Of a stretch of DNA of 64,000 bases, positions 4,105 through 49,331 are shown in pieces. The stretch comes from Macrocystis pyrifera (Eukaryota; Sar; Phaeophyceae; Laminariales; Laminariaceae): assembly GCA_031763025.1 (NCBI GenBank), contig JASSKH010000017.1, forward strand, positions 2,689,924 to 2,753,923. The letters run 5' to 3'. A model generated the notes under the pieces. That model was not told where the DNA came from, made no database searches, and saw only the letters and a program-made list of their open reading frames with translations. Position 1 is the first letter of the stretch; each line of letters begins with the position of its first letter. A program made the position numbers and the translations under genes.

Positions 4105-4342
4105 CTCGCTCGCTGCAGGCCGGTGCGTGCGTTCGCTTGTTGTATCGCGCAGCAGCGGAGCTTGACAGCAGCACGCATGTACGGTTAGACGGACGCGATT
4201 CCTTTTTTTTTAATCCTTGCAGACATCTACAGAATGTATGGCGATGGAGGGACTTTTGCCAGCCGCGGTGCTTAAGCCAGCCGAAACGGTGCGGGTATCA
4301 TATGTGTAGACCATGCGGGTGATGTGATGTGTTCAGATGGTA

Positions 4343-4451
4343 TTACAGGGGTCTATAGTTAACAGGACCTATGGTGTACGTAAAAAAACTATATATTTAG
4401 GTATTTTTACTAACAATATTTGGTCCTGTTAACAACTATGGACCCCCGTAG
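4343..4451. mobile_element. Small TIR element (MITE), family 1 copy 2
   Basis: A 109-bp copy of the element at 360-464. Its left end starts TTACAGGGGTCTATAGTT and the right end is the inverted match. It is flanked by TA at 4341-4342 and 4452-4453. A/T-rich core, no ORF. Confidence 0.75.
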
Positions 4452-4453
4452 TA

Positions 4454-4975
4454 CTCATAATATATTTTTAATGAGGTTATAAATGGATGGATGGATTTTA
4501 TCTGTCAAGTTTTAATTTATTATCCTTTTGGGACCCACGTGTTGCTACCACGAAATAATAGGAGAAGCAATATTAGTAGTGGGGTTTCCATTACACTGTC
4601 TACTGTAGTTTAACTACGGTACTTTTTATCCCTGCTGCGACTCCAGAGGGAAATATTGACGACAAGTAACGATAATTACGGCAGCATCGCCCACTGCGTG
4701 GTTGGGGAATCGGTGCCTGAACTACAGTGAACCCATTAGAACTACCGAAGAAAGGTGTCCCAAACCATTTTCAAGAAGTATGTCACAAAAAAAATGGTTG
4801 TGGTTCTTAGCGGGTTAATCCTTTCGTAGTCGTAGAACACCGGCGGGGCATGACATTTCTCATGTTGCTGGGAGCTCTCACTATCCATACATAGATGGTA
4901 AAAAACCTTTTTTTGTCGATGTTTTGGCTTCTGTTTCGGGGTCCCCAAGGGGTCAACAGTGTAGGCGCACAGCAT
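4454..4975. other. Intergenic
   Basis: Nothing recognised. A short ATGGATGG run lies at 4482-4495. Confidence 0.4.
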
Positions 4976-5955: not shown

Positions 5956-7864
5956 CTGGCGAGATATTTTTTTGCAGCCTCGGGAGCGTTGCCAGCTTGC
6001 GTCGGCGGTGAGAACCGGGCGAGCGAACGAGCGAGCAAGCAAGCGTCCAACACTGATGCTATATCCAGTGGGTGTATCGCGCGCGTGTACTCGTAGCCAT
6101 GCCACGCGATGTATGAGCGAACGGTCCCGTGTATGTATGTATGAGGTCTGCAGCAAAACTGACCTGAGGCCTAAATTGTGATGAAGAGGACAACGTGGAG
6201 TTGATTGACATACCACAACCACTCACTGTGTGCGTGCTGCTGTGGAGGACACGGGCGCGCGGGGGGGGGGGTGAACGTAAATAATACCAGGGTATTGAAC
6301 ATGACGACCCGATCAAATCAATCTGTGGTGTCAACGTGCCAACAGCTCTTCTACAATTTACTGCTGTCTTCTACAAGGGAAACTCCCAAATTGTTGGTCG
6401 GTCTGTCTGTCCCTCTGTCGCCAAGTCTAATACTACAATCAAACGAACGCTCCAACCTTCTCACCCCCAAAAGCGCTCTCCGCCCCTCCCGCAACGGCGT
6501 CTCAACTGATTCGGTCGTCACCCAGCGTCCCGCCCTCGCTGTCTCACAGCGAGCCCCGTCGCCCGCCTTGCGTGAGGCACGCCTTTGTTGCCCGTGGTGT
6601 TGCCTCGAGCACTAGATCTTTCGAGTCTCTAACCACAAAGACAATCCCGCAAACGAATCGCGTTTGTCCGCAGTTGTAGGCACCTCTTTCGTATTCATGG
6701 ATCACATCAAAACGACTTTTCTTGTATTCCCGAGCCGAGCGCTACCTGCTATGTGGCAGCTGTAAAGCATTATTACTGTACTACTACAGTAGTAGTTGTA
6801 CTCGCCGCACGTTCCCCGACATTTTTGCTGCCACACGTCCTGGCTCACAAACTTTCCGGCCTCTCACCGCGACGAGCGCAGGCCGGCGCGGCGCGAGACG
6901 GCCGGTTTCGTCGTGTGTGCACCCCAACCACGGCGAGATCTGGGGCCGAAAAGCCCCGGCACGTTCCCAGTACGGCGCATCCAAAACATTTTCAGACAAA
7001 AAAAACGACATCGATGTTCAAAGCCAACGACGACACCACCACCACCACCACCACCACCTTCACCAACAACAAAATTTTGTGCAGTACTACCTACTACACA
7101 GATGTATAAACGTTCCTGGCATTCGTTCTATTTCCGTGGCGACCTCCTCCTCGTGCGAAAGCCCGTACCTTCATAAATAAGCAGTACGTACACTGGTTAG
7201 TAAACAGAGCAACGCATATACCTGGTATATATTATATCATGGACTCTCCTCTTCTACAGTTTAGTTAATAGTAACGGACTGCTAAACTTTGGAAAATACT
7301 TTTTACCCAGGGTAGAGTTTACTCAAGGGTCTCTGCTGCAAAATCCTAATCTGCTCGTGTTGTTACCCAACTATTGTCGCGTTTACTCAGGCGATCAAAC
7401 CTTTGGGCTTGGGTTGGGCCGGCGTGGCCGCGGGAATAACGCCTGTTTGGCGTGGAATAAAGGCGTGTTTCAATTCAAGGGGACTGAAAAGCGCGGAAAG
7501 GCGGGACCGGCGACGGGCGCCAAGGGCGTGAGACGTCAAGCAAAAGGTTGATACCATGGTAATGGCCTCTTTGTTTCTGTTTTGCGGTGAAATTTACTAA
7601 TATTACAAGGGGGGGCTTGCGCCGGCGGCGTGATGGCCGCCGTCGACGCTTAAGGCCCCGCACTGCAAATTTAATGGCAGTTTTCGATGCCAAGGGCCCG
7701 TGACACATGTTGGACGAATCCCCGACGGGAATGAGTAATAGTCAGAGGGAAGAATAATGAGCGACAACAATGAGCGACAGACACCTGTTGACCCGGGGCT
7801 CGGCTGATGGACATCGATACCAATTATTGCACTTATATAATTATCGCTGACGCACTTGAGTGAT
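5956..7864. other. Intergenic
   Basis: No confident gene. There is a (CAC)n microsatellite at about 7034-7060. The stretch around 6470-6560 shares words with 30350-30440 (TCATCCGATTCGGTCG-like), suggesting an old dispersed repeat. TACCTGGTA occurs at 7219-7227. Low-complexity ORFs at 6722-7180 are not called. Confidence 0.4.
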
Positions 7865-7872
7865 CAAACTTC
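7865..7872. repeat. Target-site duplication, left
   Basis: CAAACTTC directly abuts the left inverted repeat at 7873. The identical 8 bases follow the right inverted repeat at 9512-9519. Confidence 0.9.
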
Positions 7873-7899
7873 CACACCTCGGACAACGTAACACTCGGA

Positions 7900-9488
7900 T
7901 AACACTTATCTACTTTATGAGGCTTAACACAAGAACGTGGTAACGTACTAACATAGTCTTAGCACTAGAGGAGCGATCACGGTAACGCGGTAACACAGTG
8001 TTAACTGGAAACCCACGAACGTGCACGAGCCTTGACGTTATGTTGCTTCTCGGTCTCGTCCGGCTCTAATACAGTAACATTATGTTATGCTGTGATCAGT
8101 CCTTGAACTAACACCGTAACACGGTGTTAGGGTGTGACCAAACACGTACGTTATCACTCTAACATGCCCAGATCGTTATCCGCATATTTACCATTACGGG
8201 GGACCATAGTTAGTAGGATTCAGGGTAAACACAAACACCCATATATTTCCATATTTATACTAACAAAAATTGGTCCTATTTACTATGTCCCCCCTCAATA
8301 ACACGATAACATAATGTTATTGTCGACGCAGCGTTATACGTAACACACTAACATTATGTTACCCTTAGGAGGAGAGTTATACGTAACACCCTATCGTTAC
8401 CACGTTCGCCAGCACTATTAACACATAACATCGTGTTACAGATAACACACTAACGTGACATAACGCAATGGCCAGCAATACTAACACTACGATATCTGGA
8501 CCCCCCATCTGATTGCCTCAGGGTCGGATAACGTAACACTTACAACGTACGTTAGATAAGTTACAGTCGTAGCCGGTCCATACGTAACATTATGTTAGGA
8601 TGCTAGCCTTAAGGAGGAAGTCTGTAACATTATGTTACGGTGTTACCGTCAGTGAAGATCTGATGATGGTAACATTCCGTTACCGTGTTATCATAAAGAC
8701 CAATCCGGGTCTAACTCCATGTTACTGAGTTACCGTTGGGGCCGAAGTCGTTCTAACGCAATGTTACTACGTTACCCTTTGGATCTTCCCGAGGGATCTA
8801 ACATGTGTTACCTGTGTTAGTGGTAAAGCGGGCGTGTGGGAGTAACATAGCGTAGCCGTGTTATCCAATTTCGCCGACATCCCAGTAGGGGATACCTACA
8901 ACGTATCCCCGGGGGGGGAGGATAGCATGGCTTCCCCGCAAAAAAAAACTCCACATTTTAAAACCCCGAAACAGGGGATATTATGGAGGGATCCCCCCAA
9001 AACACGCATAATTTTTTGTGGAGCCTCTAGGAATTTCACCAACACACTAACATAGTGTTATGTACGCGTTTATTTGGCCGTGTACGTTGGCCGTCGAAAG
9101 GGTGCTACGGTAGCACGAAGAATCCCGCTGACACACTAACATAAAGTTACTCGCTACGGGCTGATGCCGCTAACACGGTAACATACTGTTATCGTTTAGT
9201 TGACCATGTACGTTATCCCTTCAGCGTGTGTTACGACAGCCACCAGGAATTCCGCTAACAACACGCTAATATAGTGTTACTCGCTATGGGCTGCATACCC
9301 TAACACCGTAACATATACTGTGGTCAGTACGAGATCAAGGTGACACTCTAACTTAATGTTCCGCGATCGCCCTCCAATATCATAACACACTAACGCTATG
9401 TTATCATAAAAATCCAGAAAGCAGTTATCGTAGTAACGTAATGTTACGTTTTTTTTTCGCTGACGCCTAACATCAACATAAAACGTTA
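7900..9488. repeat. Array of ~30 21-bp dyad units, ~42-bp period
   Basis: The unit is TAACAC, 2 bases, TAACAT, 1 base, ATGTTA: two direct half-sites plus one inverted half-site over 21 bp. Forward units start at about 7900, 7941, 7983, 8025, 8067, 8109, 8152, 8299, 8341, 8384, 8419, 8443, 8482 and 8534. Reverse-complement units start at 8542, 8584, 8625, 8670, 8712, 8754, 8799 and 8843. Forward units resume at 9040, 9129, 9171, 9213, 9259, 9301, 9341, 9383, 9426 and 9468. Most steps are 40-46 bp, with 42 the commonest. The spacers share no sequence with each other. Several units (8025, 8152, 8384, 8482, 9213, 9468) are degenerate. Confidence 0.85.
8194..8298. mobile_element. Small TIR element (MITE), family 1 copy 3, nested in the array
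   Basis: A 105-bp copy of the family at 360-464 and 4343-4451, with ends TTACGGGGGACCATAGTT and a diverged inverted partner. TA follows at 8299-8300; the left flank is CA, perhaps a mutated TA. Removing it leaves a ~40-bp step between the units at 8152 and 8299, so it landed after the array had formed. Confidence 0.7.
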
Positions 9489-9511
9489 AGTGTTACGTTA
9501 TCCGAGGTGTG

Positions 9512-9519
9512 CAAACTTC
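9512..9519. repeat. Target-site duplication, right
   Basis: CAAACTTC, identical to 7865-7872, directly after the right inverted repeat. Confidence 0.9.
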
Positions 9520-10330
9520 ACAACAGCGGGGAGGCGGGGGGAGAACCTGCTCTATGACCGACCCCGGATCTAGGTTATATACGACGCCTCCCAGAAGGGA
9601 GAAAAAAAAAAGGAGCAAATAAATGAGGTCGAATATAAAAAATGGATTGTGCGAAAGATCGGGGGAAAAAATCCTCAAAAGAACACACCAGTCGATGTAC
9701 CTTGTTATTAATAGTTGCTGCAGCAGAAATTACCACACAGCACATGACATGCTTGACAATGCTATTGTGAGGAGGGAGGAGATGAGCTTCCTCTGCGACC
9801 ACCCCGGATCTAGGGTATAAGACAGAGAGAGGCTTGAATGGGCTGAAACAGTAGTGAGGAAGAAGACCACAACTACTCTTACTAATACTTACTACTGCTG
9901 TATGCTCTTCATGGGTATACATACAGCCTTGGTGGCACGTAAAATTGCTGATTCCGGGGAGACGGAATCAAGAACACAAACAGCCGAGAAACACTTAATA
10001 CACACTATACACTCTAATAAAAAAATATGTATTACTCTCCCAAAGCAACACGCAGGCATAAAAGAAAGGACCGCATGCTCGACAGCATAGTAGTGGGGAG
10101 GGAGGAGAAGAGCTTGCTCTATACGACCACCCCGGATCTAGGTTAAAAGACAAAAGATACTCGAAAGGGTTGAAACATTGAGGAAGAAGACCGTGTACTC
10201 TGCTGTATGTATTAATAGTACTCTCCATGGGTATACACACATACCTACTGTACCAGGTACGTACATTTGCTGAACTCGGGGAGACGAAATGAAGAAAACA
10301 GAGTACCCGAGAATCACACAACACTCTATT
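9520..10330. repeat. Diverged tandem duplication (~320-bp unit)
   Basis: Three stretches share a G-rich box followed by CCCCGGATCTAGG (9525-9600, 9765-9815, 10085-10140). After the second and third come matching segments: AGGAAGAAGACC, CTGCTGTATG, CATGGGTATACA and GGGGAGACG...AATCAAGA/AATGAAGA. Units two (9765-10075) and three (10085-10325) align over most of their length with many indels. No coding function is seen. Confidence 0.7.
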
Positions 10331-10439
10331 AAAATACTATTATATTAATAATACATATATATATATAATGAACAGTAACAATGTTATATATTAATAGCAA
10401 TAGCCATGAGAGTGATGACGCTTGTTGCCACGTACATAC

Positions 10440-10952
10440 TGAAGGAATGATGCGTGTCGAGGCTCTGTCTTCTATGAGAAGAGATGCAGAGGCGGCACCG
10501 AAGTGTCTGTGAAGATCACTTGTGATGAAGAAAAGAGAATGTTTGGAAAAGGCGCTTATGTGGCCAAATGTGGAAAGAAAGAAGAGTGAGCGAGTTGGGG
10601 CATGCCATCACCTGATCACGAGACAATGCCCATGCTACGGGCAGGTGTATTCTACAGCAGCCCGTCAAGGTTCCCTGAACCGTTCCTAGGAATGTCCCTG
10701 CAACGTTCTGCATAGCAAACTCGTAACGTTCTATGCAACGTTACCTGATACTTATGGTGGTAAGCTAGGCTACCCTGCAGTACGATCAGTATGATAGAGG
10801 TAAGTTGAATACAGTGTTTCGGCAAGAAGGAACAAGCTCTCAAGTCTCGCCGCATATCGTATTTCTCCGCATCTATCATAAGATACATAGTATGCTCGTG
10901 TGAAGTGACTGCACATCAACATAGAGATATGGATCTCAACGTCCATATTTCA
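10440..10952 (-). mobile_element. Copia LTR, left (3' LTR of the minus-strand element)
   Basis: A 513-bp repeat running TGAAGG...TATTTCA on the + strand, ~98% identical by eye to 21576-22084. It is preceded by ATAC (10436-10439); ATAC also follows it (10953-10956). Its outer ATAC matches the ATAC right of the other LTR (22085-22088), fitting one insertion event. The inner ATAC alternatively allows a solo LTR. The two LTRs differ by about ten substitutions and two short indels. Confidence 0.8.
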
Positions 10953-10956
10953 ATAC

Positions 10957-11759
10957 GCCCCCATGATGAATGTCAGTAGCTTAGAGGAACGCCTACAATA
11001 TTGAAACCTGATTTAAAAAAAATCAAAATGCAAAAAATATGGAACAACATATTCAGTCCGGTGTATGAACCGCGGCGATATGGCACACAATAATACTCGT
11101 GGTGTAATTACCAGCAAAAAAATGCTCTAGAAAAGAAAACGCAAACCCGTCTGCTGTGGGTATTAACACGCCCCCATTAATTTATACTTAGAGCTACATG
11201 AAACCGAGTTATATCCTAGAAAAGAAAGCGTAAGAAAATATCTGATGTAGTACGTGTACCCGCCCCCTCAATAGAATCTTAGGATATCTAAGAAATCAAA
11301 GAAAATTAAAAATGTAATTAACTGTCCGGTACTACTACAATCGTAGACCACACGTGAATGTGTAAACTATGACAGTTTGTAAGCTTGTGCTCGTACAATA
11401 AATACGAACTAATACTTGCTTGCATGGATGTTCGTACAACACAGCAGCTACTCTACTGCTGTACGTCAAAGCAGTGGATTAAGTCCACAGGACACAAAGA
11501 AAGTTGTACTAGTCCTGCCGACGACGCCAAGTGTGATGTGTGTGTGGTGGGGGAGAGCAGTAAGGGTTCCACGGGATGATGATCCACAGAAGAAGTGTGA
11601 CACAGATGTCAGTGCTTGGTCAACCTCAGACCTAGTTCTTTTTGGAGTTCTCTTGTTTTATTGGTGCAAGGCTTGCTCAAAAGGGGCAAGCGAGAAGAGT
11701 GAGGAGAGAGGGGGGGGGGGGGGGGGCACATGCTTTTTGAAGCCAGGAGAATCCTCTGG
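10957..11759. other. Inner 3' region of the Copia composite, no gene
   Basis: A/T-rich sequence with no recognised gene. A short G-rich stretch on the minus strand (GGGGGCG, opposite 10956-10962) next to the LTR is a weak candidate polypurine tract. A G run lies at 11711-11726. Confidence 0.4.
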
Positions 11760-11764
11760 CTTCA

Positions 11765-12050
11765 ACCGGCTATATTCTACTGGCAAGGGTGCATGCGTCA
11801 CCCTCACTTCAATAGTGCAACGTCCCGTAAAAGTGCATGCGTTGCCCTCAACTTCAATAGTACAGCGCCCCGTAAGGGTGCATGCGTTGCCCTCAACTCC
11901 AATAGTACAACACCCCGTAAGGGTGCATGCGTTACTCTAAGCTTCAATAGTACAATAACTCATAAGGGAACATACGATACTCTAAACTACAATAGTACAA
12001 CACCCCGTAAGGGTGCACGTGTTATTCTCAGCTTCAATAGTACAACCTAT
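11765..12050. repeat. 45-bp minisatellite
   Basis: CAATAG recurs at 11810, 11855, 11900, 11945, 11990 and 12035, an exact 45-bp step. Units contain CCCCGTAAGGGTGCATGCG and diverge by several substitutions. Because 45 is a multiple of three, an ORF of 15-residue repeats (NSTTPRKGACV type) crosses it; coding is not otherwise supported. Confidence 0.9.
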
Positions 12051-12104
12051 ACTAACCTGCATATCAGATTCTACAGGTATACCAGTTTGCGTGTCTACAG
12101 ATAT

Positions 12105-12230
12105 ACTAACCTGCGTATCGACAGATATCAAATGGTAAACAGGGTACGACCCGACTGGAACAATAATAGCCTGCGTATCTACAGATATCAAAATGGTAAA
12201 CGGGGTACGACCCGACTGGAACAATAATAT
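12105..12230. repeat. Tandem duplication of ~60 bp
   Basis: CCTGCGTATC...ACAGATATCAAA...GGGTACGACCCGACTGGAAC occurs twice (about 12110-12168 and 12170-12228) with few differences. A shorter related word (ACCTGCATATCAG) precedes it. Confidence 0.85.
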
Positions 12231-13306
12231 TTAACGGCCCCTACTGATGGTTGGTCAATAATTGAATTGATGAATTGACTACCAACCAAGGTACTCTATC
12301 ACAACTACTAATACGCATGTGTAAGCAGTTCGTATTCAGGAATTAAGTAATCAACCGTATATTTAGTTCAGGATACTTCTAAGAACATTCCTGACTTCCC
12401 CTCAATACAAAATTGCTAAACCTACTCATATAGAGGTTGTTGCTGGAGTTGCTGTTGCTCCTCATTCTGTTGTTGTTGTTGTTGTTGTTCATGATGATGA
12501 TGGTAGTGTGTGTGTGTTCTTCACATTAAACCATTCTTCTACTCGTCGACATCCAGCAAGCCCAGTGTCCGTGCTGATTCTTCACCCTAGAAAGATACGA
12601 GCTCTGTGGTCACAGACTACGATACAGAGATAATACACCGTAATGCATTAATAGCCTACGCAATACCACGCCTTCGCACTAGGTGCGGCCGACACAACAT
12701 ACATACATACGCCAGCAACCAAAATACACCATAAAGAAAGAGAAGCAACGAAGAAACCAAACCGAAAAAGAACAGGAAAAAAGAAAAAGAAAAGGAGAAG
12801 AATCCCAAATAAATAAATAAAATGGGAAGCCAAAGCTCAGACACATACATACTTACCCCGAGCATGAGCCAAAAAGGACGTGCAAGGGGAAAGATACGAG
12901 AAGGTAGTTTGATGTGACGAAGAAGCTTAGAAGAGGATGATGGGTCGAAGATGGTTGTGATGGTGGTGGGGTGTGTTGATCTGTCCTCTCAAGCAATCGG
13001 CCCAGAAGCCCAGGTGTTGGAATTCCCGATGCCCGATCCTCGTACTACTGTTTCTTGTCGAGGTCCTTGTTTCCGGCGTGAGAGCTCTGGTTCTCGCGTC
13101 GTTCGTAGTTATTTTCCTGGAATTTTATGTAACGCGGCGGAATAGGAGCTCGATTTCTCCCCTAAATGCAACGCCACAAAATTCGATGGAACTCCCAAAT
13201 GTGGCCAATGGGAATGACTCCACAATCTCAGATTGTCCATGTAGTAGTCATCCCTGAAAACCATGTTGCGGACTGGAGTTCAGCTGAGACTTCGAGGAGT
13301 TGGGGC
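12231..13306. other. Inner 3' region of the Copia composite, no gene
   Basis: Contains a (TTG)n stretch at 12466-12487 and A-rich sequence at 12730-12820. No gene recognised. In minus-strand terms this follows the pol stop codon at 13307 and would be 3' untranslated sequence or later insertion. Confidence 0.4.
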
Positions 13307-15900
13307 CTAACTGGATGGCTGCGAGCCTTGTTCGCGAACTTTGGTGCAGAGGTTGCTGAAGGCGAGCTTTTCGCAGAATTTGGTCCAGACATCACTTATT
13401 TGATCTTTCGAAGAAACAAAGTCGATGATGATCCCTTTTTCTTTGATCCAGTCTCTGAGTGCCGCATAGCGGATGGTGAAATGCTTGCTGCGATTTGAGT
13501 AGTTTCCATTAGCAGCAAGGTGGAGAGCGCCTCTGTTGTCCGATGAAATCTTGAAGGTCCTGAAGTGCTTCCAGCCCAGCTCTCCGAGTAACCCGCTTAG
13601 ATACACGCCTTGCTTGGCGCACGTATTTATCGCTATTATTTCGGACTCGGTAGTGCTTTGCGATACAATTTTCTGTAGTTGACTCGAGAAATGTACGAGG
13701 CCGCCAGCAATGAAAAACATGCTCCCGGTCACGGACCTCATTTTCTCAGGGTCCCCCATTCCGTAAGATGCGTCACAGTATCCAACCAGATCGAAGCTGC
13801 TGTCTCTCTTGTAGATGATGGGTAGGTCCGGTGTGCCTCGAAGATAGCGCAAGATTCTCTTAACGCCAGCCATGTGTACTGTCGTTGGCTTAGCCATGTG
13901 CCGCGCAGACTGCGTCGTACTGAAAGCGATATCAAATCTCGTGCACTGCGTGGGGAATATCAGACTCCCTACCATTGCTTGATAGAGCTTTGTTGCTTGT
14001 TCGTCCAGAGGCACACTTCGGTTGCCTTTCCAATTCCGGGCGTATGCACTGGATTGCAATCGCTCATGTTGAAACGCTCGAGTACCGAGAGTGTGTACTT
14101 GCCTTGGTTCAACTCGATGGTGCCGAGTTCCTTGTTGCGCTTGATCTCGATTGGATGGTCCCGTGATGAGTAGATCGTCGACAAATAGCGTCAGCATGAT
14201 GTAGTGGTTGCCACTTCCCTTTGTGTAGACGCAGGGGATGTTGTAGACGTGAACTTGTTGCGCTTGATCTCGATTCCAAGAATTTGTGTTACGTCCCCGA
14301 GGTCGGTCATAGCAAATGTTGCCATAAGCATACTTCGAACCTCGGCCACGCTTGCGTTGAATGGTCCCGTGATGAGTAGATCGTCGACAAATAGCGTCAG
14401 CATGATGTAGTGGTTGCCACTTCCCTTTGTGTAGACGCAGGGGTCTCTGATGTTGTAGACGTGAAGCCCATAGCTCGTAAGTCTTTGTCGATGGTGTGCT
14501 GTTCCAGACGCTGGGAGATTGTCGAAGTCCGTACAAGCTCTTGCGTAGTTTCATCACGAGCTTTTGATTAGTCTTGTCTGTCGTTTCGAAGCCTGGTGCT
14601 TTTGCTTGGTGTATACGTCCTCTTGAAGTTTCCCGGTGAGGAATGCGGTTTGTACGTCCATAGCTAGTATTGGCCAATCCCGTGATGCCGCGATAGCCAG
14701 TAGAACACGCTGACTCTCGATGCGGCAAAACGGAGCAAAGGTTGTGAAGCAGTCCAGTCCATGCTGTTGTGCCCATCCTTGTACCACTAGACGTGCTTTG
14801 AAGCGTCCGTCTGTTTTCACACGGAACACCCAGCGCGTACCGATGACGGAGCAGCCAGGAGGTACTGAGGTGGATGGAATTAAATCGGCTACCTCGTGCT
14901 CGTCCAGGCTCTGGAGCTCCTTGCGCATGGCTGCTTCCCACTCTTCCGCTTGAGGTGAGGCCATAGCTTGCGCGTAAGTGTTGGGTACTGAAATAGATGC
15001 CGGTGGATGTACGTTGTCCAATCCCACAGCTCCGATGTACTGCGTGATGTTCTCGAACTGTGTTGAAGATGCTTCTTGATCAGCTGAAGTAGATGACCTT
15101 AGCCGCGTTCAAATCGGCTTGAAGCTTGATGTGTTGCTGGCCTTACCGCCAGTGGTGTTGGTGAAGTCGTTCGCTTCCAGAGATGTGATGCCGTTGTCGA
15201 TGTTGTGGTAGTCATCCACGAAATCGGTGTCTGTGTCCGACTCGAAGTTGGAAATCTCTGTTTCTATTCCCCCCGAGGCGTCTGTCGTTGGGAAAACGGC
15301 AGGCGGCTCTTCGATGAAGGAGACGTTGCGCGAGCTTGAAACTCTTCCCGTGTTGCGATCATATACGCAGAAGGTAGGCTTGTCGCTGTCGTAGCCGATG
15401 AGAACACCCTCCCAAGCCCTAGCTTGAAGTTTTGTTGTGTACCCCTCAACGTGCACGAAGGCTCGTGTGCCGATGATCCGCAAGTATGAGAGATCGGCTT
15501 GCTTGCCGAACATGCGATAGTACGGCGAATCGCCTCCGACGGCCTTGTGCGGTAGACGGTTGATCAGGAAGACAGCTGTTGCAGCTAGCTCCCCCCACAG
15601 ATGTTTCGGAAGGTTCGCTTCGTTCAGCAAGCATCGGGTCATGTCCATGATGGTACGCCCGTCCCGTTCCGAAATACCGTTCTGCTGTGGCGTGTGTGGA
15701 GCGGTGAATTGCTGCTGTATGCCGGTAGTGTTGCAGTAGTCGCGAAAGCTGCTGGAAATGTACTCGCCCCCATTATCAGAGCGTAGATGTTGCACCCGAA
15801 GTCCAGGAGGAATAGCCAGATCTAGGATGAATTTGCAGAGGGTGTGTAGCGTGTCGCTCTTCTTTGCGAGAGGAATAGCCAGATCTAGGATGAATTTGCA
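13307..15900 (-). pseudogene. Copia pol copy 1 (integrase core, RT, RNase H), left arm of palindrome
   Basis: From right to left: integrase core (HLRSDNGGEYISSSF, then a conserved TPQQNGISERDGRT block; 15795-15400), a linker, then reverse transcriptase starting near 14990 (EEWEAAMRKELQSL, GTRWVFRVKTDGRFKARLV, AMDVQTAFLTG). The active-site box LFVDDLLITG lies at about 14380-14403. RNase H follows (GYCDASYGM..., SQSTTESEIIAIN, DNRGALHLAAN; 13900-13440). The frame breaks near 14590 and again around 14170-14400, where an internal ~240-bp piece is duplicated so that both a deleted and an undeleted version of the RT palm are present. The native C-terminus and stop are kept at 13307. Homologous to the + strand copy at 16284-18585. 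Confidence 0.9.
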
Positions 15901-15903
15901 GAG
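15829..15903. repeat. Short direct duplication in the left arm
   Basis: GAGGAATAGCCAGATCTAGG...TTTGCAGAGGGTG occurs twice (from about 15809 and 15869) in the left arm but once in the right arm, making the palindrome arms unequal. Confidence 0.75.
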
Positions 15904-16092
15904 GGTGAGTACGCTTCAGTGAAGATGTTCATCAAGTCGCTGAAACATCTACACAATCGCGACGACCTACTGTTCTACATGGACAGCAGGGTGTTTGGGT
16001 TCTTGGTGCGCGCATGGATTCTAAATCACCTTTCAGACGGGTATGATTTCCTGCTGGCAAATCGTTTCTACAACGATATTGACAAGGCATGA
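15904..16092 (+). other. Foreign ORF segment at the palindrome centre, left copy
   Basis: Reading toward the centre, a clean frame encodes about 60 residues (starting YASVKMFIKSLKHLHN, later DGYDFLLANRFYNDI) and stops with TGA at 16090-16092. It runs opposite to the flanking pol and matches no Copia domain I know. Its mirror copy is at 16106-16283. It may be captured host exon sequence. Not identified. Confidence 0.6.
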
Positions 16093-16105
16093 ATAGCGCC
16101 TTTTC
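16081..16105. other. 25-bp spacer at the centre of the 5-kb palindrome
   Basis: The arms meet as ...GATATT (ending 16080) and AATATC... (starting 16106). Only these 25 bases are unpaired, so the centre could extrude as a cruciform or form a hairpin. Confidence 0.85.
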
Positions 16106-16283
16106 AATATCGTTGTAGAAACGATTTGCCAGCAGGAAATCATACCCGTCTGAAATGTGATCTAGAATCCATGCGCGCACCAAGAACCCAAACACCCTGC
16201 TGTCCATGTAGAACAGTAGGTCGTCGCGATTGTGTAGATGTTTCAGCGACTTGATGAACATCTTCACTGAAGCGTACTCACCC
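16106..16283 (-). other. Foreign ORF segment at the palindrome centre, right copy
   Basis: Inverted copy of 15904-16080, differing by a few bases (for example ATCCTAGATCACAT against ATTCTAAATCACCT on the coding strand). It abuts ACCCTCTGCAAATTC of the integrase on its outer side. Confidence 0.6.
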
Positions 16284-18585
16284 TCTGCAAATTCATCCTA
16301 GATCTGGCTATTCCTCCTGGACTTCGGGTGCAACATCTACGCTCTGATAATGGGGGCGAGTACATTTCCAGCAGCTTTCGCGACTACTGCAAAACTACCG
16401 GCATACAGCAGCAATTCACCGCTCCACACACGCCACAGCAGAACGGTATTTCGGAACGGGACGGGCGTACCATCATGGACATGACCCGATGCTTGCTGAA
16501 CGAAGCGAACCTTCCGAAACATCTGTGGGGGGAGCTAGCTGCAACAGCTGTCTTCCTGATCAACCGTCTACCGCACAAGGCCGTCCGAGGCGATTCGCCG
16601 TACTATCGCATGTTCGGCAAGCAAGCCGATCTCTCATACTTGCGGATCATCGGCACACGAGCCTTCGTGCACGTTGAGGGGTACACAACAAAACTTCAAG
16701 CTAGGGCTTGGGAGGGTGTTCTCATGGGCTACGACAGCGACAAGCCTACCTTCTGCGTATATGATCGCAACACGGGAAGAGTTTCAAGCTCGCGCAACGT
16801 CTCCTTCATCGAAGAGCCGCCTGCCGTTTTCCCAACGACAGACGCCTCGGGGGGAATAGAAACAGAGATTTCCAACTTCGAGTCGGACACAGACACCGAT
16901 TTCGTGGATGACTACCACACCATCGACAACGGCATCACATCTCTGGAAGCGAACGACTTCACCAACACCACTGGCGGTAAGGCCAGCAACACATCAAGCT
17001 TCAAGCCGATTTGAACGCGGCTAAGGTCATCTACTTCAGCTGATCAAGAAGCATCTTCAACACAGTTCGAGAACATCACGCAGTACATCGGAGCTGTGGG
17101 ATTGGACAACGTACATCCACCGGCATCTATTTCAGTACCCAACACTTACGCGCAAGCTATGGCCTCACCTCAAGCGGAAGAGTGGGAAGCAGCCATGCGC
17201 AAGGAGCTCCAGAGCCTGGACGAGCACGAGGTAGCCGATTTAATTCCATCCACCTCAGTACCTCCTGGCTGCTCCGTCATCGGTACGCGCTGGGTGTTCC
17301 GTGTGAAAACAGACGGACGCTTCAAAGCACGTCTAGTGGTACAAGGATGGGCACAACAGCATGGACTGGACTGCTTCACAACCTTTGCTCCGTTTTGCCG
17401 CATCGAGAGTCAGCGTGTTCTACTGGCTATCGCGGCATCACGGGATTGGCCAATACTAGCTATGGACGTACAAACCGCATTCCTCACCGGGAAACTTCAA
17501 GAGGACGTATACACCAAGCAAAAGCACCAGGCTTCGAAACGACAGACAAGACTAATCAAAAGCTCGTGATGAAACTACGCAAGAGCTTGTACGGACTTCG
17601 ACAATCTCCCAGCGTCTGGAACAGCACACCATCGACAAAGACTTACGAGCTATGGGCTTCACGTCTACAACATCAGAGACCCCTGCGTCTACACAAAGGG
17701 AAGTGGCAACCACTACATCATGCTGACGCTATTTGTCGACGATCTACTCATCACGGGACCATCCAATCGAGATCAAGCGCAACAAGGAACTCGGCACCAT
17801 CGAGTTGAACCAAGGCAAGTACACACTCTCGGTACTCGAGCGTTTCAACATGAGCGATTGCAATCCAGTGCATACGCCCGGAATTGGAAAGGCAGCCAGA
17901 CGGAAGTGTGCCTCTGGACGAACAAGCAACAAAGCTCTATCAAGCAATGGTAGGGAGTCTGATATTCCTCACGCAGTGCACGAGATTTGATATCGCTTTC
18001 AGTACGACGCAGTCTGCGCGGCACATGGCTAAGCCAACGACAGTACACATGGCTGGCGTTAAGAGAATCTTGCGCTATCTTCGAGGCACACCGGACCTAC
18101 CCATCATCTACAAGAGGGACAGCAGCTTCGATCTGGTTGGATACTGTGACGCATCTTACGGAATGGGGGACCCTGAGAAAATGAGGTCTGTGACCGGGAG
18201 CATGTTTTTCATTGCTGGCGGCCTCGTACATTTCTCGAGTCAACTACGGAAAATTGTATCGCAAAGCACACTACCGAGTCCGAAATAATAGCGATAAATA
18301 CGTGCGCCAAGCAAGGCGTGTATCTAAGCGGGTTACTCGGAGAGCTGGGCTGGAAGCACTTCAGGACCTTCAAGATTTCATCGGACAACAGAGGCGCTCT
18401 CCACCTTGCTGCTAATGGAAACTACTCAAATCGCAGCAAGCATTTCACCATCCGCTATGCGGCACTCAGAGACTGGATCAAAGAAAAAGGGATCATCATC
18501 GACTTTGTTTCTTCGAAAGATCAAATAAGTGATGTCTGGACCAAATTCTGCGAAAAGCTCGCCTTCAGCAACCTCTGCACCAAAG
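16284..18585 (+). pseudogene. Copia pol copy 2 (integrase core, RT, RNase H), right arm of palindrome
   Basis: Inverted copy of 13307-15900. The integrase core is open at 16328-17014 (HLRSDNGGEY, NGISERDGRT). RT starts near 17096 (EEWEAAMRKELQSL) and breaks near 17560. LFVDDLLITG lies at 17729-17758, immediately followed by a deletion that joins it to the IEIKRNKELGTIELNQGKY block. RNase H runs 17900-18585, with a frameshift in SQSTTESE (SQSTLPSPK) near 18270. The C-terminal codons after LCTK are replaced by LTR sequence. Not functional. Confidence 0.9.
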
Positions 18586-18775
18586 AATACACCTGCCCGT
18601 AGCATGGGCATTGTCTCGTGATCAGGTGATGGCATGCCCCACCTCGCTCACTCTTCTTTCTTTCCACATTTGGCCACATAAGCGCCTTTTCCAAATCATA
18701 CCCGTCTGAAATGCAGAGGGTGTGTAGCGAGGCTCATAACCTGAAGGAATGATGCGTGTCGAGGCTCTGTCTTTT
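18586..18775. other. Scrambled junction of LTR and PBS fragments
   Basis: Four pieces lie side by side. 18586-18690 is an inverted LTR piece matching 10550-10655. About 18694-18712 (ATCATACCCGTCTGAAATG) comes from the palindrome-centre segment. About 18713-18728 (CAGAGGGTGTGTAGCG) comes from integrase sequence. 18729-18773 is the primer-binding region plus the first ~35 bases of an LTR (GGCTCATAACC then TGAAGGAATGATGCG). Pol on the minus strand resumes after it. This is a record of template switching or self-integration. Confidence 0.75.
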
Positions 18776-20345
18776 CAATGAAGTATACGGCCTTCAGCCT
18801 GGTGTGATGATCCGTGTACTTTGCCATGTAGCTGTGCCCCCCAATAGCTTTGGGTGTGACTGACCCTAGCAGATCTGTACTGACCAGTTTCAGACGTTCA
18901 CTGGTTGGGTCAGGGCGCGCTGTCTTAGGGTGATTTTGTTGAGTGCTTTTGTTGATTTTGCACGTATCACACGCCGAGAAAGAGTCGGTAAAATTAACCC
19001 CACTCTCCGCGATGTTTTTCACCTTAGCCATAACTTGCCCGTTAGGATGTCCCAGCCTCTTACACCAGATGTTAGCTCCAACTGTTGCAGAGAGAGCAGT
19101 AGGAGCTACTTGAGCAGCCATAACAGTTTCCGGCTTGAAATTGTTGCCCGACACGGTCGGAAAAGCCGTCTCAGTTGCTTGGCTTACCGCTGCTGTGGTA
19201 AGATCAAGATGATCCAGAGTAGAGCAGTGGCTGTCCTTGCGTAGTGGCACGGTGAAGTCGCCCAGGTCCAGATAAGAATGCTTGGCGATGATTGTCTTAG
19301 GGTGATTTTGTTGAGTGCTTTTGTTGATTTTGGACGTATCACACGCCGAGAAAGAGTCGGTAAAATTAACCCCACTCTCCGCGATGTTTTTCACCTTAGC
19401 CATAACTTGCCCGTTAGGATGTCCCAGCCTCTTATGCCAGATGTTAGCTCCAACTGTTGCAGAGAGAGCAGTAGGAGCTACTTGAGCAGCCATAACAGTT
19501 TCCGGCTTGAAATTGTTGCCCGACACGGTCGGAAAAGCCGTCTTAGTTGCTTGGCTTACCGCTGCTGTGGTAAGATCAAGATGATCCAGAGTAGAGCAGT
19601 GGCTGTCCTGGCGTAGTGGCACGGTGAAGTCGCCCAGGTCCAGATAAGAATGCTTGGCGATGACCATGTTGACTCCCTTCGCCGCTGCTGTTCCCCCCGA
19701 AAATAGGTGCCGGCCCAGCCTGGGTACGATCGTGACAGGAAGCTGCACGGAGTGATTGGAGCCTAGATGGTCCAATACGTTGACCACCAAAACCCCTTTG
19801 CCAATACCGAAAAGGCGGTGGTTTCCCGCGACATTATTTGTCACAGGAAGGTCCAGGTGTACGTACTCTACCATTTTACTTTCGATGCCTTCTAAAAGCT
19901 GGTTATCGATGAAGTGGCTGGAGGCGCCGCTGTCAGCAGTCATGGAGAAGTCGATGGACTTGGTAGTGATGTCGGTTGAAGGTGCTGCTATGAAAGAGTA
20001 GCCGATGCCGTCAGGAGGTGTTGATGGCGTAGATGAAGAGGAAGGAGTCGTGGTGGACGTAGAAGTAGCTGTAGTTGTTGCAGCAGTAGTAGTAGCAGAT
20101 GGAGCATATGTAGCGGGGCTGTAAGCTGCCACTTGCGTTGTTGAACTTGGAGTGATGGCGGTGTTGGCGTGAGCGCCACTGTTGTTGCGTTGGCCGTTTT
20201 GTTGACTAGGGCGAAAGCTACGGCTTCTGTTGCTGCTTTCACGCTCCCGCTTTTGCACTAAACAGTCGCTATTATCATGGCGATCCGTGTGATGCAGGCT
20301 ACACCAAGAATTTTTTTCGTGGTGTATGGGCAGGTTTTTTCCCAT
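18776..20345 (-). pseudogene. Copia gag C-terminus, protease and gag-pre-integrase
   Basis: From 20345 leftward: a Cys/His box (WCSLHHTDRHDNSDC), a Ser/Thr-rich linker, then the aspartic protease with the active-site box DSGASSHFID near 19935. The gag-pre-integrase zinc region follows (RLGHPNGQVMAKV, then SACDT.KINKS), and the start of the integrase core (TDLLGSVTPKAIGGHSY). The zinc region is tandemly duplicated in frame (period 372 bp, 18922-19293 and 19294-19665). It ends abruptly at the junction with an LTR fragment after YFIEK. In a full element this cleaves Gag-Pol and integrates cDNA; here it is cut off from the rest of pol. Confidence 0.85.
18922..19665. repeat. In-frame 372-bp tandem duplication of the zinc domain
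   Basis: GTCTTAGGGTGATTTTG begins each unit at 18922 and 19294. In the promoter-proximal protein copy the ligands read H...H...C...S; in the other they read C...H...C...C. Each copy has therefore lost a different zinc ligand. Confidence 0.85.
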
Positions 20346-20393
20346 TCATCGATTTTTTGCGTGCAAAACAATTTTGAAACCGATGGCCTGCCT

Positions 20394-21446
20394 TTAGCAG
20401 TGTGAACAGGTCACTACTGCTGACGACGTCGTTGTAGTTATCATTGCTGATTCACGCCCCTTCGCTTTGCGCGAAGGCCCGTGGCGCATAACTTGATTAG
20501 TGTACATGTTACGCATGGTAATCACTGCTTGATCAAGAGAGAAGTCATTGTCTGCTTCAGCGCTGTACTTGATTTGTGCAAAATCATCCGTGAGTCCCTC
20601 TAATACTATATCCAGTATGCTGTCATCATTTATCACCTCGCCCATGTATACCAGCTCATCTCTTAAATGGTTTACTTCATTAATGAATATGTCCGGGTCT
20701 TGCCCCTCTGACATAACCATTTTTGAGAGTTGAGATTTTAGTATGCGTTTGCGTTGGCGAGTAGAATTTTGGTACTTATTTACCAAACCATCCCAAGCGG
20801 CCTTTCCATTCGCGAGTTCACCTTGTTTTGGCTTAAATTGGAGAAGAAAGCTCGCCGCTGCTCCCGAAGCGCTCAGAAACAAAAAGTCGTAAAGAAGTCG
20901 ATTGTCACGGTGCCAGTTGGATATCTTCGATGTTGGAGATGTTGTCATCCGTAGACCACAGAACTGATGTCGAGGCTGGAATCGAAGAAAATGAATACGA
21001 TGATGGTGCCGCAGGCTGTATGTCGGCTCCTTGTACAGTTGGTATATGTGGAGATGATGCTCCTGTATCTGCATGAGGTGTAGCTCCCGTTCCAGATGGT
21101 GTACCGACGGGAGATGTTTCCCCCGTGGTGTGCTGAGTAGATTCATCAACGGCCTGGCTGCGTGTTACAGCACGTGAAGGTGTTCTCGTTGTAGATGATG
21201 GATGAGGATGAATATAATCGGGTTCGGGGCACGGACGTCCTTCCAGGATGTCCGAGATGCCCGAATGACGCATGCTTCTGACGGACTGGGCCGTGCGCTT
21301 CCATACATCGTACTTGAGTCCCGTGAATTTGCCGCCGACCGCTCTAACGAGCTTGTCCACCGCATCAGCTGCTTTCGTTGACTCTCCCATGATGTTGATG
21401 CTGATGCTGTAGTCGGGGCTTGATTGTTATTTGTTTTTGGAAACAA
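20394..21446 (-). pseudogene. Copia gag
   Basis: Two overlapping frames make up Gag. 21390-20905 encodes the N-terminal part (GKFTGLKYDVWKRTAQSVR..., then a Ser/Thr/Pro-rich stretch ending WSTDDNISNIEDI). From about 20950 the frame changes and 20394-20945 continues with a capsid-like block (AAWDGLVNKYQNSTRQRKR, LSKMVMSEGQDPDIFINEV, LEGLTDDFAQIKYS) typical of Copia Gag (UBN2-type). A frameshift near 20940 and a break before the Cys/His box near 20370 separate it from pol. No myristoylation or envelope features. Gag forms the virus-like particle that houses reverse transcription. Confidence 0.8.
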
Positions 21447-21556
21447 TTCCTCCGCAATGGAGAAAGTGAGATCTTTTCTTGAGCTTCTTGGAAGAACTTG
21501 ACGAACTCAGCGGGACGTCGAAGCGTGGTGCCAGTCGATGCGTTGCAGGTAGACTA

Positions 21557-21575
21557 GAAGTCGAGGCTCATAACC
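21557..21575 (-). promoter_or_regulatory. Candidate primer-binding site (half-tRNA-Met type)
   Basis: On the minus strand the bases just inside the 5' LTR read GGTTATGAGCCTCGACTTC. Its complement contains GGCTCATAACC, the anticodon-loop sequence of Met tRNA (CAT anticodon) rather than a tRNA 3' end. Drosophila copia is known to prime from a tRNA-iMet half-molecule cut in the anticodon loop; the same mode is inferred here. Confidence 0.6.
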
Positions 21576-22084
21576 TGAAGGGATGATGCGTGTCGAGGCT
21601 CTGTCTTCTATGAGAAGAGATGCAGAGGCGGCACCGAAGTGTCTGTGAAGATCACTTGTGATGAAGAAAAGAGAATGTTTGGAAAAGGCGCTTATGTGGC
21701 CAAATGTGGAAAGAAAGAAGAGTGAGCGAGGTGGGGCATGCCATCACCTGATCACGAGACAATGCCCATGCTACGGGCAGGTGTATTCTACAGCAGCCCG
21801 TCAAGGTTCCTTGAACCGTTCCTAGCAATGTCCCTGCAATGTTCTGCATAGCAAACTCGTAACGTTCTATGCAACGTTACCTGATACTTATGGTGGTAAG
21901 CTAGGCTACCCTGCATTACGATCAGTATGATAGAGGTAAGTTGAATACAGTGCGTCGGCAAGAAGGAACAAACTCAAGTCTCGCCGCATATCGTATTTCT
22001 CCACATCTATCATAAGATACATAGTATGCTCGTGTGAAGTGACTGCACATCAACATAGATATGGATCTCAACGTCCATATTTCA
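21576..22084 (-). mobile_element. Copia LTR, right (5' LTR of the minus-strand element)
   Basis: A 509-bp repeat, TGAAGG...TATTTCA, ~98% identical by eye to 10440-10952 and followed by ATAC at 22085-22088. It lies next to the PBS and gag, so it is the 5' LTR; the promoter should lie here but no TATA box was assigned. Confidence 0.85.
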
Positions 22085-22088
22085 ATAC

Positions 22089-23770
22089 ATACGAAAAAAA
22101 AAAACTCCGGTGTTGGCCAGGCACTTTGTGACCACAGAACTTGTATCTCTCTAGGATTGAAGAATCGGCACGGACACTGGTTGTGCTGGATGTCGACGGG
22201 TAGAAAGAACGGTTTAATGTGAAGAAAACAACAATATTGCGACAAAGAATATACCAGGTATATGTTTAGCTCGTTGGAGAATTTCAGTAATGGTACGCGA
22301 AATTTTTCTGTGACGACAACAGCATCACACCGAGAAGTCGGAGGAATCAGCATCACGCATGCGACAGGCAACGACACGCACGACCGAAATTTGTATAGAA
22401 TACTCGCCTGTGGTGAGCCGAGGATGACTGGAAGTAAGACTGGAGGCAAGAAATACTCGCCTTAGGCGAGCCGCAACATGACTGGAAGTAAGACTGGAGG
22501 GAAGAAATAGTCGCCTGCGGTGAGCCGCAACATAGTCATAGTAATACACACAACCGACAGCAATCATCTTGGTTCCTTTGGTAAGCCAAAGCCCCATTTC
22601 CTTTTCACCCTTTTAGCCCCTCGATGTAGGCACCGGGCGGTGCTCTTAGGAAGGATGGTGGAATACGTCGCTGTGTCTAACGGGCAGAAAGCAGACAGAC
22701 AAGCCAACAGGTGTTGCATGCTTAAATGTATGTCTGACTATATATATGTATGTACCTACGTATGAATGTCTGTGCGTATGTCTGTATGTCTGTCTGTCTG
22801 ACTACTGTCTGTCGGTCTGTCTGTCCGTCTGTCTGTATGTATATACAAGGTTTTCCTTCGTAGTGTAGGGGTAAGATGGAGTCGCTTCTTGTACGACTTC
22901 GTTTGGTTGGCTTTGGGTTATTCCGCCATTTTCCACAGGTTATAAGCTGCAATTGAGGTAATGGTGTAAAGAGAGTCAACCAGACGAAATTGTATTTGTG
23001 CCCTTTGGTCCGGGGCAAAGGTTGAGTAGTGGCATGGCGGGGATGATCTATTGATTAAAGGGGGGTTCGGTACGGGGGGGAAGGCAGCAGTGCCCGCAAC
23101 GACAACTGTTATGGCACTGTCGTACAGCAGTTGTTGGGCGGCCGCGATTTCGATATTTACTACTTATGGTAGAGTTGCCTTCGGAGACGTTGTGTTAAAA
23201 CAACAATGACGGCGGTGACACAAGAAATGAAGACCCACATCAACATGACTGAATACTTGTTTGTGTATCTATCTACATCGTTTGCCTGCATTCGCTAATA
23301 AATCATTAACTCTATTTCCAGTACAAATAACAGTCGTTGGAATTTTTAATTATTGTACAAAGGGGGCTTGGCCGTGGCGGGCTGACGCCCGCCTGCGGCT
23401 CCGCGCATGCCCGTAATGGCTAAGGGCGTACCGGTGTGCAACTCGAGGCTGTTAGTGCGATAGTACTACCAAGGGGTGCATTAAAAAAAACGAATTTGAG
23501 TGAAGAGAAAGAAAACGCTGCAAACACAAGAGAAACAAACATTGCCATCCGCCATCCGGCCCAACAACGCATTACTCGTTCGTATACAGCAGCAAGCAAC
23601 ACTACAAAGTACTACGCACGAGACGCTCGGCGTCCGTACTGTATACTTCCTGTACAGATAGACACTAAACAATTAGTTGAGCAGCAGTCGACCGAGTTAA
23701 TCGACAGTACGAAGCGCCGGCGATTAGGTTGGTGCAGCAAGTTCAGCAGCAGCAAGCAGCAGCAGCATAG
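22089..23770. other. Intergenic with TCTG microsatellite
   Basis: A run of TATG/TCTG tetranucleotides lies at about 22725-22845. Short words GCCTG(A/C)GGTGAGCCG...ATGACTGGAAGTAAGACTGGAGG repeat at 22405-22515 (three related ~45-60-bp units). TACCAGGTA occurs at 22252-22260. Short ORFs are not supported. Confidence 0.5.
23767..23770. repeat. Target duplication of chromovirus 1 (left)
   Basis: ATAG before the 5' LTR; the same ATAG follows the 3' LTR at 29650-29653. Confidence 0.8.
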
Positions 23771-24283
23771 TGTGATATGAGTGGAGTACTCATGGGCTAT
23801 AGATATAGATGATACGTTGCAGTCTTGTAGTCTCACGAATACGAGAGTAATCCAAAGAATGGATTAACCCGGCGGATATTCCGTGAGTCGAGAGTAACGT
23901 TCTTTTAGGAATGTTCCCTAGGGCAGATAACCCGCTAGACGAGAGTAATGCTCCTTAACGCAGATAGGACCACGAAGTGAGAAGTTCTTATATTAGCAGA
24001 AGAACGACCGGTAGCCATAGGAAAGTTCTGTAGGCGTACATCAGATAAGAGGAATTTAGGGGAGCTTGTGGCGTGGGGTGGGACGAGTATATCTGGGCGT
24101 CGAGTCCCTCCCCCCTACCTCTCACTTCTCTACCAGAGCACCTCCTCAGCTCTCGCCATCAATAAGAAGATCTAAATCAGAAGAAGCGAAGCACTGCTTT
24201 CCAGCTGCCAGAACCACCTGCGTCCCTTACCACTACCCTTACCACTACCATTACCACTACCCTATAGCAGCCACCGCTTCACA
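23771..24283 (+). mobile_element. Chromovirus 1, 5' LTR
   Basis: 513 bp, starting TGTGATATGAGTGG and ending CGCTTCACA. It holds an extra CCATTACCACTA unit near its end compared with the 3' LTR. The 117-codon ORF inside it is also present in the other LTRs; no function is assigned. Confidence 0.9.
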
Positions 24284-27300: not shown

Positions 27301-27466
27301 GGGAACTCCACCGGAGCCTTTACCGGGAAGCTCCTACATCGTCCGGTTCCTGGACGACCCCGGCCCGATCAAGATCGACCTCCAGCCCGCCCGCTACACT
27401 ACAGCACGGAACGCCGTATACGGATCTTGGTGTCTTCAACGCCATGGGAATGAGAGCCTAGCACGT
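24316..27466 (+). pseudogene. Chromovirus 1 pol remnant (RNase H tail, integrase, chromodomain)
   Basis: RNase H C-terminus at 24316-24530 (FQIYSDHKARENI, EYRKGTAIGNADFLSRLPQP). A Pro-rich linker follows. The integrase zinc region is at about 25617-25770 (CHATTSLH..., WWIHRCPQCQARK) and the core at 25815-26270 (VDYFGPLPLTPRGNVHILLF, LLSDTGLHF, NGGVERVNH; the D, D and E catalytic residues remain, but the usual N after SD is T). Damage: stop at 25330, 1-base insertion at ~25775, stop TAA at 26267, stop at ~26600. A chromodomain-like stretch is at about 26880-27050 and a Tudor-like module at about 27215-27440. Compare the better-preserved copy at 51367-53300. Confidence 0.9.
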
Positions 27467-27530
27467 GGGGTGCTGCGGAACTCTGTTGTGTCCCGCGACG
27501 TGCTAGGCTCTCATTCCCATGGCGTTGAAG
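27434..27530. repeat. Perfect 33-bp inverted repeat at the end of pol
   Basis: 27434-27466 and 27498-27530 are exact reverse complements (CTTCAACGCCATGGGAATGA... and its mirror), separated by 31 bp. The second chromovirus has only the first arm; there TCCCGCG is followed directly by GAACCCCCA. The second arm is therefore a 32-bp templated inverted insertion specific to this copy. Confidence 0.9.
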
Positions 27531-29145: not shown

Positions 29146-29649
29146 TGTGATATGAGTGGAGTAATCATGGGCTATAGATATAGATGATACGTTGCAGTCT
29201 TGTAGTCTCACGAATAATACGAGAATAATCCAAAGAATGGATTAACCCGGCGGATATTCCGTGAGTCGAGAGTAACGTTCTTTTAGGAATGTTCCCTAGG
29301 GCAGATAACCCGCTAGACGAGAGTAATGTTCCTTAACGAAGATAGGACCACGAAGTAAGAAGTTCTTATATTAGCAGAAGAACGACCGGTAGCCATAGGA
29401 AAGTTCTGTAGGCGTACATCAGATAAGAGGAATTTAGGAGAGCTTGTGGCGTGGGGTGGGACGAGTATATCTGGGCGTCGAGTCCCTCCCCCCTACCTCT
29501 CACTTCTCTACCAGAGCACCTCCTCAGCTCTCGCCATCAATAAGAAGATCTAAATCAGAAGAAGCGAAGCACTGCTTTCCAGCTGCCAGAACCACCTGCG
29601 TCCCTTACCACTACCCTTACCACTACCCTATAGCGGCCACCGCTTCACA
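29146..29649 (+). mobile_element. Chromovirus 1, 3' LTR
   Basis: 504 bp, TGTGATATGAGTGG...CGCTTCACA, followed by ATAG (29650-29653). It differs from the 5' LTR by about eight substitutions, a short AAT insertion and one repeat unit. Confidence 0.9.
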
Positions 29650-29653
29650 ATAG

Positions 29654-36339: not shown

Positions 36340-36667
36340 AGTCACGTTCAACCTCGTTTCCAGGTTGGTTCGGTTGCCATTCCACAATGTATAGCGCACG
36401 TTTCGAACGCTATGGTGTACGCTGACTCGGGCGGTGGTAGTGTCAATACCGTTTGGTGATCACGATGTATTCCGCGATTCAATAGCGACAAACTCGGTAA
36501 ATACATGTCGAGATAGAGAAGTAGTATCCCGCGATCATGATGTATTCCGTAGCGTGATCGGATATAGCTCGCCATCAATCGAGATAGATACGTACACGTT
36601 CACGGCTATTGAAATACGCCTAGGAGATCGTGTCTACAAAAACACTCAGCGAGCAACCGTTACCGAT

Positions 36668-49252: not shown

Positions 49253-49331
49253 AGTCACGTTCAACCTCGTTTCCAGGTGGATTTGGTTGCCATTCCACAA
49301 CGTATAGCGCTCGTTTCGAACGCTGTGGTGT

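Follow-up and report, generated by a model that had tools for sequence, protein, structure and literature searches.

The regularly spaced 21-bp sites found in a 64,000-nucleotide stretch of Macrocystis pyrifera DNA (hereafter the window) probably fill most of a non-autonomous DNA transposon of high copy number and are putative cooperative binding sites for a transposase. Direct support for the transposon comes from the inverted tips, the 8-bp duplications at independent loci, the lack of coding capacity, the many dispersed copies and the orientation of the sites.

A 21-bp motif on a 42-bp ruler

The original prediction had described about 30 motif sites on a 42-bp ruler between positions 7900 and 9488 of the window. 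A matrix seeded with that motif and iterated reached the 21-bp consensus TAACACnnTAACATnATGTTA, which consists of three TAACRY half-sites, two direct and one inverted, and is degenerate in several sites of the array. As predicted, the region between 7860 and 9520 is rich in such sites: 29 score 8 bits or higher, 22 of which reach 12 bits, and their modal step is 42 bp. Elsewhere in the window (62.3 kb), the matrix, which had been trained on the array's own sites, found six sites at the 8-bit threshold and none at the 12-bit one. With up to three mismatches, TAACACnnTAACATnATGTTA has 18 matches in the window (0.02 expected), some of which overlap on opposite strands, and every one lies within the element delimited below. 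The matrix scan and the 42-bp autocorrelation that had been proposed as checks both bore out the array. Cross-validation worked in both directions: training on the left half alone recovered 19 matches of more than 10 bits in the other half (mean 0.2 and maximum 2 in shuffles), and training on the right half recovered 10 in the left (mean 0.1 and maximum 3). Base autocorrelation, which is blind to the motif, peaked at lag 42 with z = 7.0, the largest z over all lags in 500 shuffles being 4.8.

Nineteen of the 28 steps between neighbouring sites are 38-48 bp long, with a mean of 42.3 bp and a standard deviation of 1.5 bp, and nine are exactly 42 bp. This periodicity exceeds that of all 2,000 random placements, in a test whose best single period was 43 rather than 42 bp. 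A multimer could plausibly bind along one face of the DNA, as predicted, but with a range of 39 to 45 bp the regular steps do not establish strict rotational phase. The sites are arranged in three blocks of alternating orientation (+, -, +), and the probability of only three orientation runs among the 21 strong window sites is P = 0.0004. The two largest gaps between sites correspond to a site-poor centre and to a nested MITE, whose empty site is found in the copies L039-L042, with a step there of 40 bp in L039, L040 and L041. This MITE belongs to a small family with tips near TACGGGGGTCCATAGTTA, two further copies of which lie in the window at about 355-475 and about 4337-4473.

Conservation is confined to the motif. 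Among 21 oriented units, chosen by setting aside eight of the 29 sites as weaker or irregular, identity is 0.72 in the motif and 0.265 and 0.264 in the flanking spacers, against an expectation of 0.252 from composition. When all 22 sites of at least 12 bits were compared, the values were 0.70 for the motif versus 0.26-0.27 for the spacers. The original claim that motif and phase, and not spacers, are conserved therefore stands. Because the motif is 72% alike and the spacers 26% (25% expected), the array is not an ordinary satellite, in which the whole unit would be conserved between copies. Tandem Repeats Finder also reported no array at the element, and an ordinary satellite or decayed tandem repeat was rejected on this result together with the composition-level identity of the spacers.

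Limits of the element and its dispersal in the genome

Although the array is real, the element that carries it runs from 7873 to 9511, beyond both predicted limits (Table 1). Its terminal inverted repeats are identical at 21 of 22 positions, with tips CACACCTCGG.. (CACACC). Of the 2,795 inverted-repeat pairs tested across the window, nine have an exact 8-bp direct repeat on their outer sides; eight of these are palindromes, and CAAACTTC is the sole non-palindrome. The longest stop-free stretch is 71 codons in the window copy and 84 codons across five further copies scanned. With its inverted repeats, the CAAACTTC repeat and frames of at most 71 codons, the window element, 1,639 bp long, is built like a non-autonomous DNA transposon.

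Table 1 Features of the array element and of the larger repeat in the window.
Feature	Position	Strand	Remarks
Larger repeat (about 3.3 kb), left part	7606-10443	+	Resumes at about 22096-22548
Left 8-bp target-site duplication CAAACTTC	7865-7872	.	Same 8-mer at 9512-9519
Whole non-coding element	7873-9511		1,639 bp
Left terminal inverted repeat CACACCTCGGACAACGTAACAC	7873-7894	+	22 bp
Site block A, + sites, 42-bp ruler	7941-8463	+	Strong sites at 7941, 7983, 8067, 8109, 8299, 8341, 8443
Nested 107-bp MITE within block A	8192-8298	.	Clean empty site in all four independent copies aligned there
Internal copy of terminal sequence, A/B boundary	8524-8542	+	19 bp identical to right end
Site block B, - sites	8585-8863	-	Strong sites at 8585, 8625, 8670, 8712, 8754, 8843
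Site-poor centre	8864-9039	.	Shorter than in L041 and L042
Site block C, + sites	9040-9446	+	Sites at 9040, 9129, 9171, 9259, 9301, 9341, 9383, 9426
Right terminal inverted repeat	9490-9511	-	
Right 8-bp target-site duplication CAAACTTC	9512-9519	.	

The window copy is embedded in a larger repeat: in 20 of the matching genome stretches described below, taken with wide flanks, homology continues past the tips. The exact right tip is present in 12 of these 20 related loci, all 12 of which share the flank caaactt, and in the remaining eight a strict pattern detected no right tip. The shared flank suggests a single insertion as the common origin of these copies. CAAACTTC was thus ruled out as simply the window copy's own duplication and by itself represents a single event, so that copies elsewhere were examined. 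The repeats next to 9771 and 10092 gave empty-site evidence that was too weak to rely on. The larger repeat has no evident terminal inverted repeats, is mostly preceded by TA and apparently lies head-to-tail beside the loci L019 and L034. It is split by a copia-type element (10439-22088), whose direct repeats at 10439-10956 and 21575-22088, 97% alike, were read as LTRs; this element contains a 3.4-kb inverted duplication (14357-17766) and a 372-bp tandem duplication (18921-19663).

The window's own assembly (537 Mb) was searched for further copies. The terminal repeat with at most two mismatches gave 1,396 matches (674 + 722) and the motif with at most one mismatch 3,433 (1,653 + 1,780), with none for the reversed control in either case. 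The element thus numbers hundreds of copies in this genome. With the array DNA as the query, at least 59 matching genome stretches were found among the best 40 of 5,505 candidates scored, and 33 of these stretches, including the window, cover no less than 94% of the query length, with identities from 87% upwards. Twelve independently sited copies were opened (L036-L042 and L045-L049), as well as L043 and L044, which belong to the larger-repeat group. These copies are not a random sample: L036-L043 are tip pairs 1.6-2.1 kb apart among the first 100 listed tips, L044-L047 and L049 were chosen as longer tip pairs, and L048 was chosen for a nearby hAT domain. Six of the 12 independent copies (L038, L040, L042, L045, L047 and L049) are flanked by perfect 8-bp duplications that differ from one another (CAAGGTTC, GTATTTAC, TTAGTTTT, AAAAGGTT, CAGCAGTT and AAAGCAAC), and the duplication of L036 is alike at seven of eight positions; at the tips of the other five (L037, L039, L041, L046 and L048), with at most four of eight positions alike, no duplication was recognisable. 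These independent duplications support mobility with an 8-bp stagger at independent loci. Subterminal transposase sites, one of the identities originally proposed for the array, are thereby well supported by the bounding inverted repeats, the independent duplications and the high copy number.

Copies outside the larger repeat share one anatomy. L036-L042 are 1,783-2,075 bp long and carry 20-25 sites of at least 12 bits in blocks of orientation +, -, +; each of L039, L040 and L041 has 25 sites, arranged as ten +, seven -, a site-poor centre and eight +. In an alignment of nine copies (the window copy and L036-L043), identity is 0.65-0.72 among motifs and 0.26-0.28 among spacers, the sites having been picked with the matrix, which builds in part of the motif identity and none of the spacer identity. 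The top autocorrelation lag between 20 and 119 bp is 42 in all nine. In seven of the nine copies, 67-68 bp separate the left tip from the first strong site (15 bits); on the right, the corresponding distance is 62-66 bp in eight copies. Moreover, a 16-bp core of the internal tip, TCGGATAACGTAACAC, is found internally in six of the nine. From the internal tip to the right end, the orientation of the sites is mirror-symmetric, and block A reads the opposite way, which suggests that the element may derive from an old fusion of two ends.

Between the nine copies, conservation is 0.940 in site cores, 0.931 in spacers and 0.913 at the other site positions, and it is highest in the tips (0.991), by which the copies had been chosen. 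The nine-copy comparison gives no sign of selection on the sites since the recent burst. As the cores barely exceed the spacers, constraint acted before the recent spread and not visibly since.

Further repeats were noted in the window. The segments 34600-39412 and 47509-58269 are duplicates of each other at about 81% identity, and the latter is split by an insert at 49337-55357. Part of that insert (50196-55357) matches 24437-29650 at 95% identity and codes for integrase domains, and is accordingly gypsy-like; a tRNA-Glu (CTC) gene (49343-49417) lies directly at the breakpoint of the insertion. A 12-bp tandem repeat, CCCTTACCACTA, occurs at 24224-24263, 29602-29629 and 55309-55336, in LTR-like repeats of the gypsy-like elements. 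Searches with two retrotransposon proteins from the window gave 30 matches for one and, for the other, 269, of which the best 120 were covered; all matches named by organism were to Ectocarpus. One match is labelled Undpi1, which we take to be the kelp Undaria pinnatifida, and is 89% identical over 31% of the query. By these matches the host is a brown alga, probably a kelp.

Candidate partners and known systems

In the five longer copies, L044-L047 and L049, which come from pairs among 100 of the 1,396 tip places, no transposase was recognised. The 1,242-aa frame of L044 was considered as that of an autonomous partner and rejected, as it belongs to a LINE with endonuclease and reverse transcriptase, within the larger repeat. 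This LINE, with its frame open, sits inside the array element (L044:593-4321). L049 is a 7-kb copy with the perfect duplication AAAGCAAC, and its insert is an LTR retrotransposon with RNase H and integrase zinc-binding domains; the inserts of L045-L047 lack long frames. The hAT dimerisation domain has at least 150 genome matches (the best 150 of 317 candidates scored), which were compared by eye with 100 of the tips. The nearest, that of L048, lies about 5 kb from a tip and outside the element, and was rejected as the partner transposase. A search of the genome with PF18758 (KDZ) gave no match, and none was obtained in the control genomes either. In viral_contigs, the tip pattern and the paired-site pattern gave no locus, the motif one and the internal tip three, and in genome_contigs the motif gave three loci; none of these seven loci holds a comparable array. 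At one of the seven, L004, a short 30-bp tandem repeat adjoins the match.

The usual hAT tip is not CACACC, and the hAT target is nTnnnnAn. The kelp element shares the 8-bp duplication of hAT elements, its CACACC tips do not fit, and nTnnnnAn fits one of the six perfect duplications (GTATTTAC). Like Ac/Ds and other hAT elements (PMC3260210, PMC3143072), the kelp element combines 8-bp duplications, short terminal repeats, repeated subterminal motifs and many non-autonomous copies. Ac transposase binds cooperatively to subterminal AAACGG repeats (PMC3260210), and Herves transposase binds a short subterminal motif (PMC3143072). In contrast to the 6-8 bp motifs of hAT elements, the kelp motif is 21 bp long with three half-sites, and its sites span most of the element instead of the end 200 bp only.

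Galileo, a Drosophila element of the P superfamily with Foldback-like ends, resembles the kelp element in its long, internally repetitive ends with several sites. Binding has been shown experimentally in Galileo, whose THAP domains bind sites in these ends, beginning some 70 bp inside the tip (PMC3688188). The kelp element differs in its 20-25 sites with unrelated spacers and its 22-bp terminal repeats. Compared with the sites of Ac or Galileo, the kelp array is longer and more regular.

Among KDZ (Kyakuja-Dileera-Zisupton) elements, 8-bp duplications like those of the kelp element are described for Zisupton and a Dileera family, and CA..TG termini, a further point of similarity, are reported for Kyakuja, which has 7-bp duplications and no terminal inverted repeats (PMC12730594). 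In Cryptococcus, terminal repeats of KDZ elements measure 139-241 bp, the duplications being 8 bp long in KDZ1 and between 4 and 8 bp in KDZ2 and KDZ3 (PMC12810828). The kelp element differs from Kyakuja in its 8-bp duplications and its inverted repeats, and from the Cryptococcus elements in the length of these repeats (22 bp). In the genome of the brown alga Ectocarpus, KDZ elements are reported to make up 1.8% and hAT elements to be sparse (PMC12477816). CACTA/EnSpm elements likewise have repeated subterminal motifs, and those of Spm/En are bound by TNPA, a protein that the element encodes (PMC2613891). However, duplications in the clade that includes EnSpm are given as 2-5 bp (PMC12730594). 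The 8-bp duplication of the kelp element argues against this clade, leaving hAT, KDZ and P of the superfamilies considered.

Proposed function of the array

Transposase binding, its cooperativity, a role of the sites in synapsis and mobilisation in trans are steps that we infer from the sequence. A partner element would supply the transposase, whose DNA-binding domain would dock on each 21-bp motif, and neighbouring sites, about four helical turns apart, would be bound cooperatively. The arrays at the two ends may then mediate end recognition and synapsis, after which the transposase would cut at the tips and insert the element with an 8-bp stagger. The spacers would be free to drift, because only the sequence and spacing of the sites would matter for mobilisation. 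A kept site, orientation block and spacing together with free spacers are the trace expected of selection for binding of a cooperative protein, and the transposase of a partner element is the most economical candidate for that protein, since transposition is the only activity of the family for which there is evidence here. Several observations weigh against the model, namely that the longer copies opened yielded no transposase, that site cores and spacers are almost equally conserved between the nine copies, that five of the 12 independent copies have no recognisable duplication, and that the regular steps spread over 39-45 bp.

It is unlikely, though worth weighing, that the element is a transposon but does not need the sites for transposition, these being bound instead by a host factor (a regulator of the Myb type, for instance) or serving as a platform for transcription or silencing. 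TAAC is similar to the core sequence recognised by Myb-type proteins, and the longer copies yielded no transposase. In addition, the number of sites is far above the three AAACGG copies that Ds transposition is reported to need (PMC3260210). The arrangement of the sites speaks against a host factor, however, as they form oriented blocks, the first strong one lies 62-68 bp from most tips, and all 18 window matches to the consensus are inside the element. Considerably less probable is growth in the manner of foldback or satellite DNA, in which a 42-bp tandem repeat arose by replication slippage in a transposon end and then decayed, the motif decaying least. Such growth would be in line with a 131-bp stretch duplicated together with its spacers (9041-9185 versus 9172-9315, the only clearly alike spacer pair) and with the tandem repeats in Galileo ends (PMC3688188), but neutral decay would not spare half a unit at 0.72 while the spacers fell to 0.264, close to the 0.252 of composition, and the tandem-repeat search found nothing at the array. 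The regular spacing could also be that of a chromosomal replication, partition or nucleosome-excluding locus, as the original prediction had alternatively proposed, but this is scarcely credible for a sequence that proved to be a dispersed, high-copy mobile element with target duplications. A prokaryotic or viral replication or partition locus was ruled out by the 537-Mb genome, the copia- and gypsy-type genes and the brown-algal protein matches.

Within the preferred reading, that of putative transposase-binding sites, a bolder version is tentative and rather doubtful. In this version, the element would be a transposase scaffold, on which 20-25 units of three half-sites, set on a lattice of nearly 42 bp, nucleate an extended filament of protein and DNA, and the family, with more than 3,400 sites in the genome, would act as a sponge that captures or titrates the transposase of its autonomous partner and wins mobilisation by the number of its sites rather than by the sequence of its tips.

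The array is most likely a crowded and evenly spaced version of subterminal transposase sites, a kind that is itself already known. To our knowledge, such sites are usually few, short and irregular. No description of this transposon family was found in the literature searched, which does not show that the family is unpublished. Brown-algal transposon biology has been described as underexplored (PMC12477816). With 20-25 composite sites per copy, randomised spacers and a near-constant ruler, the binding code and the spacing rule can be read from the sequence, and the family offers a testable system for the roles of site number, orientation and helical phase in end synapsis and for the competition of non-autonomous elements for transposase.
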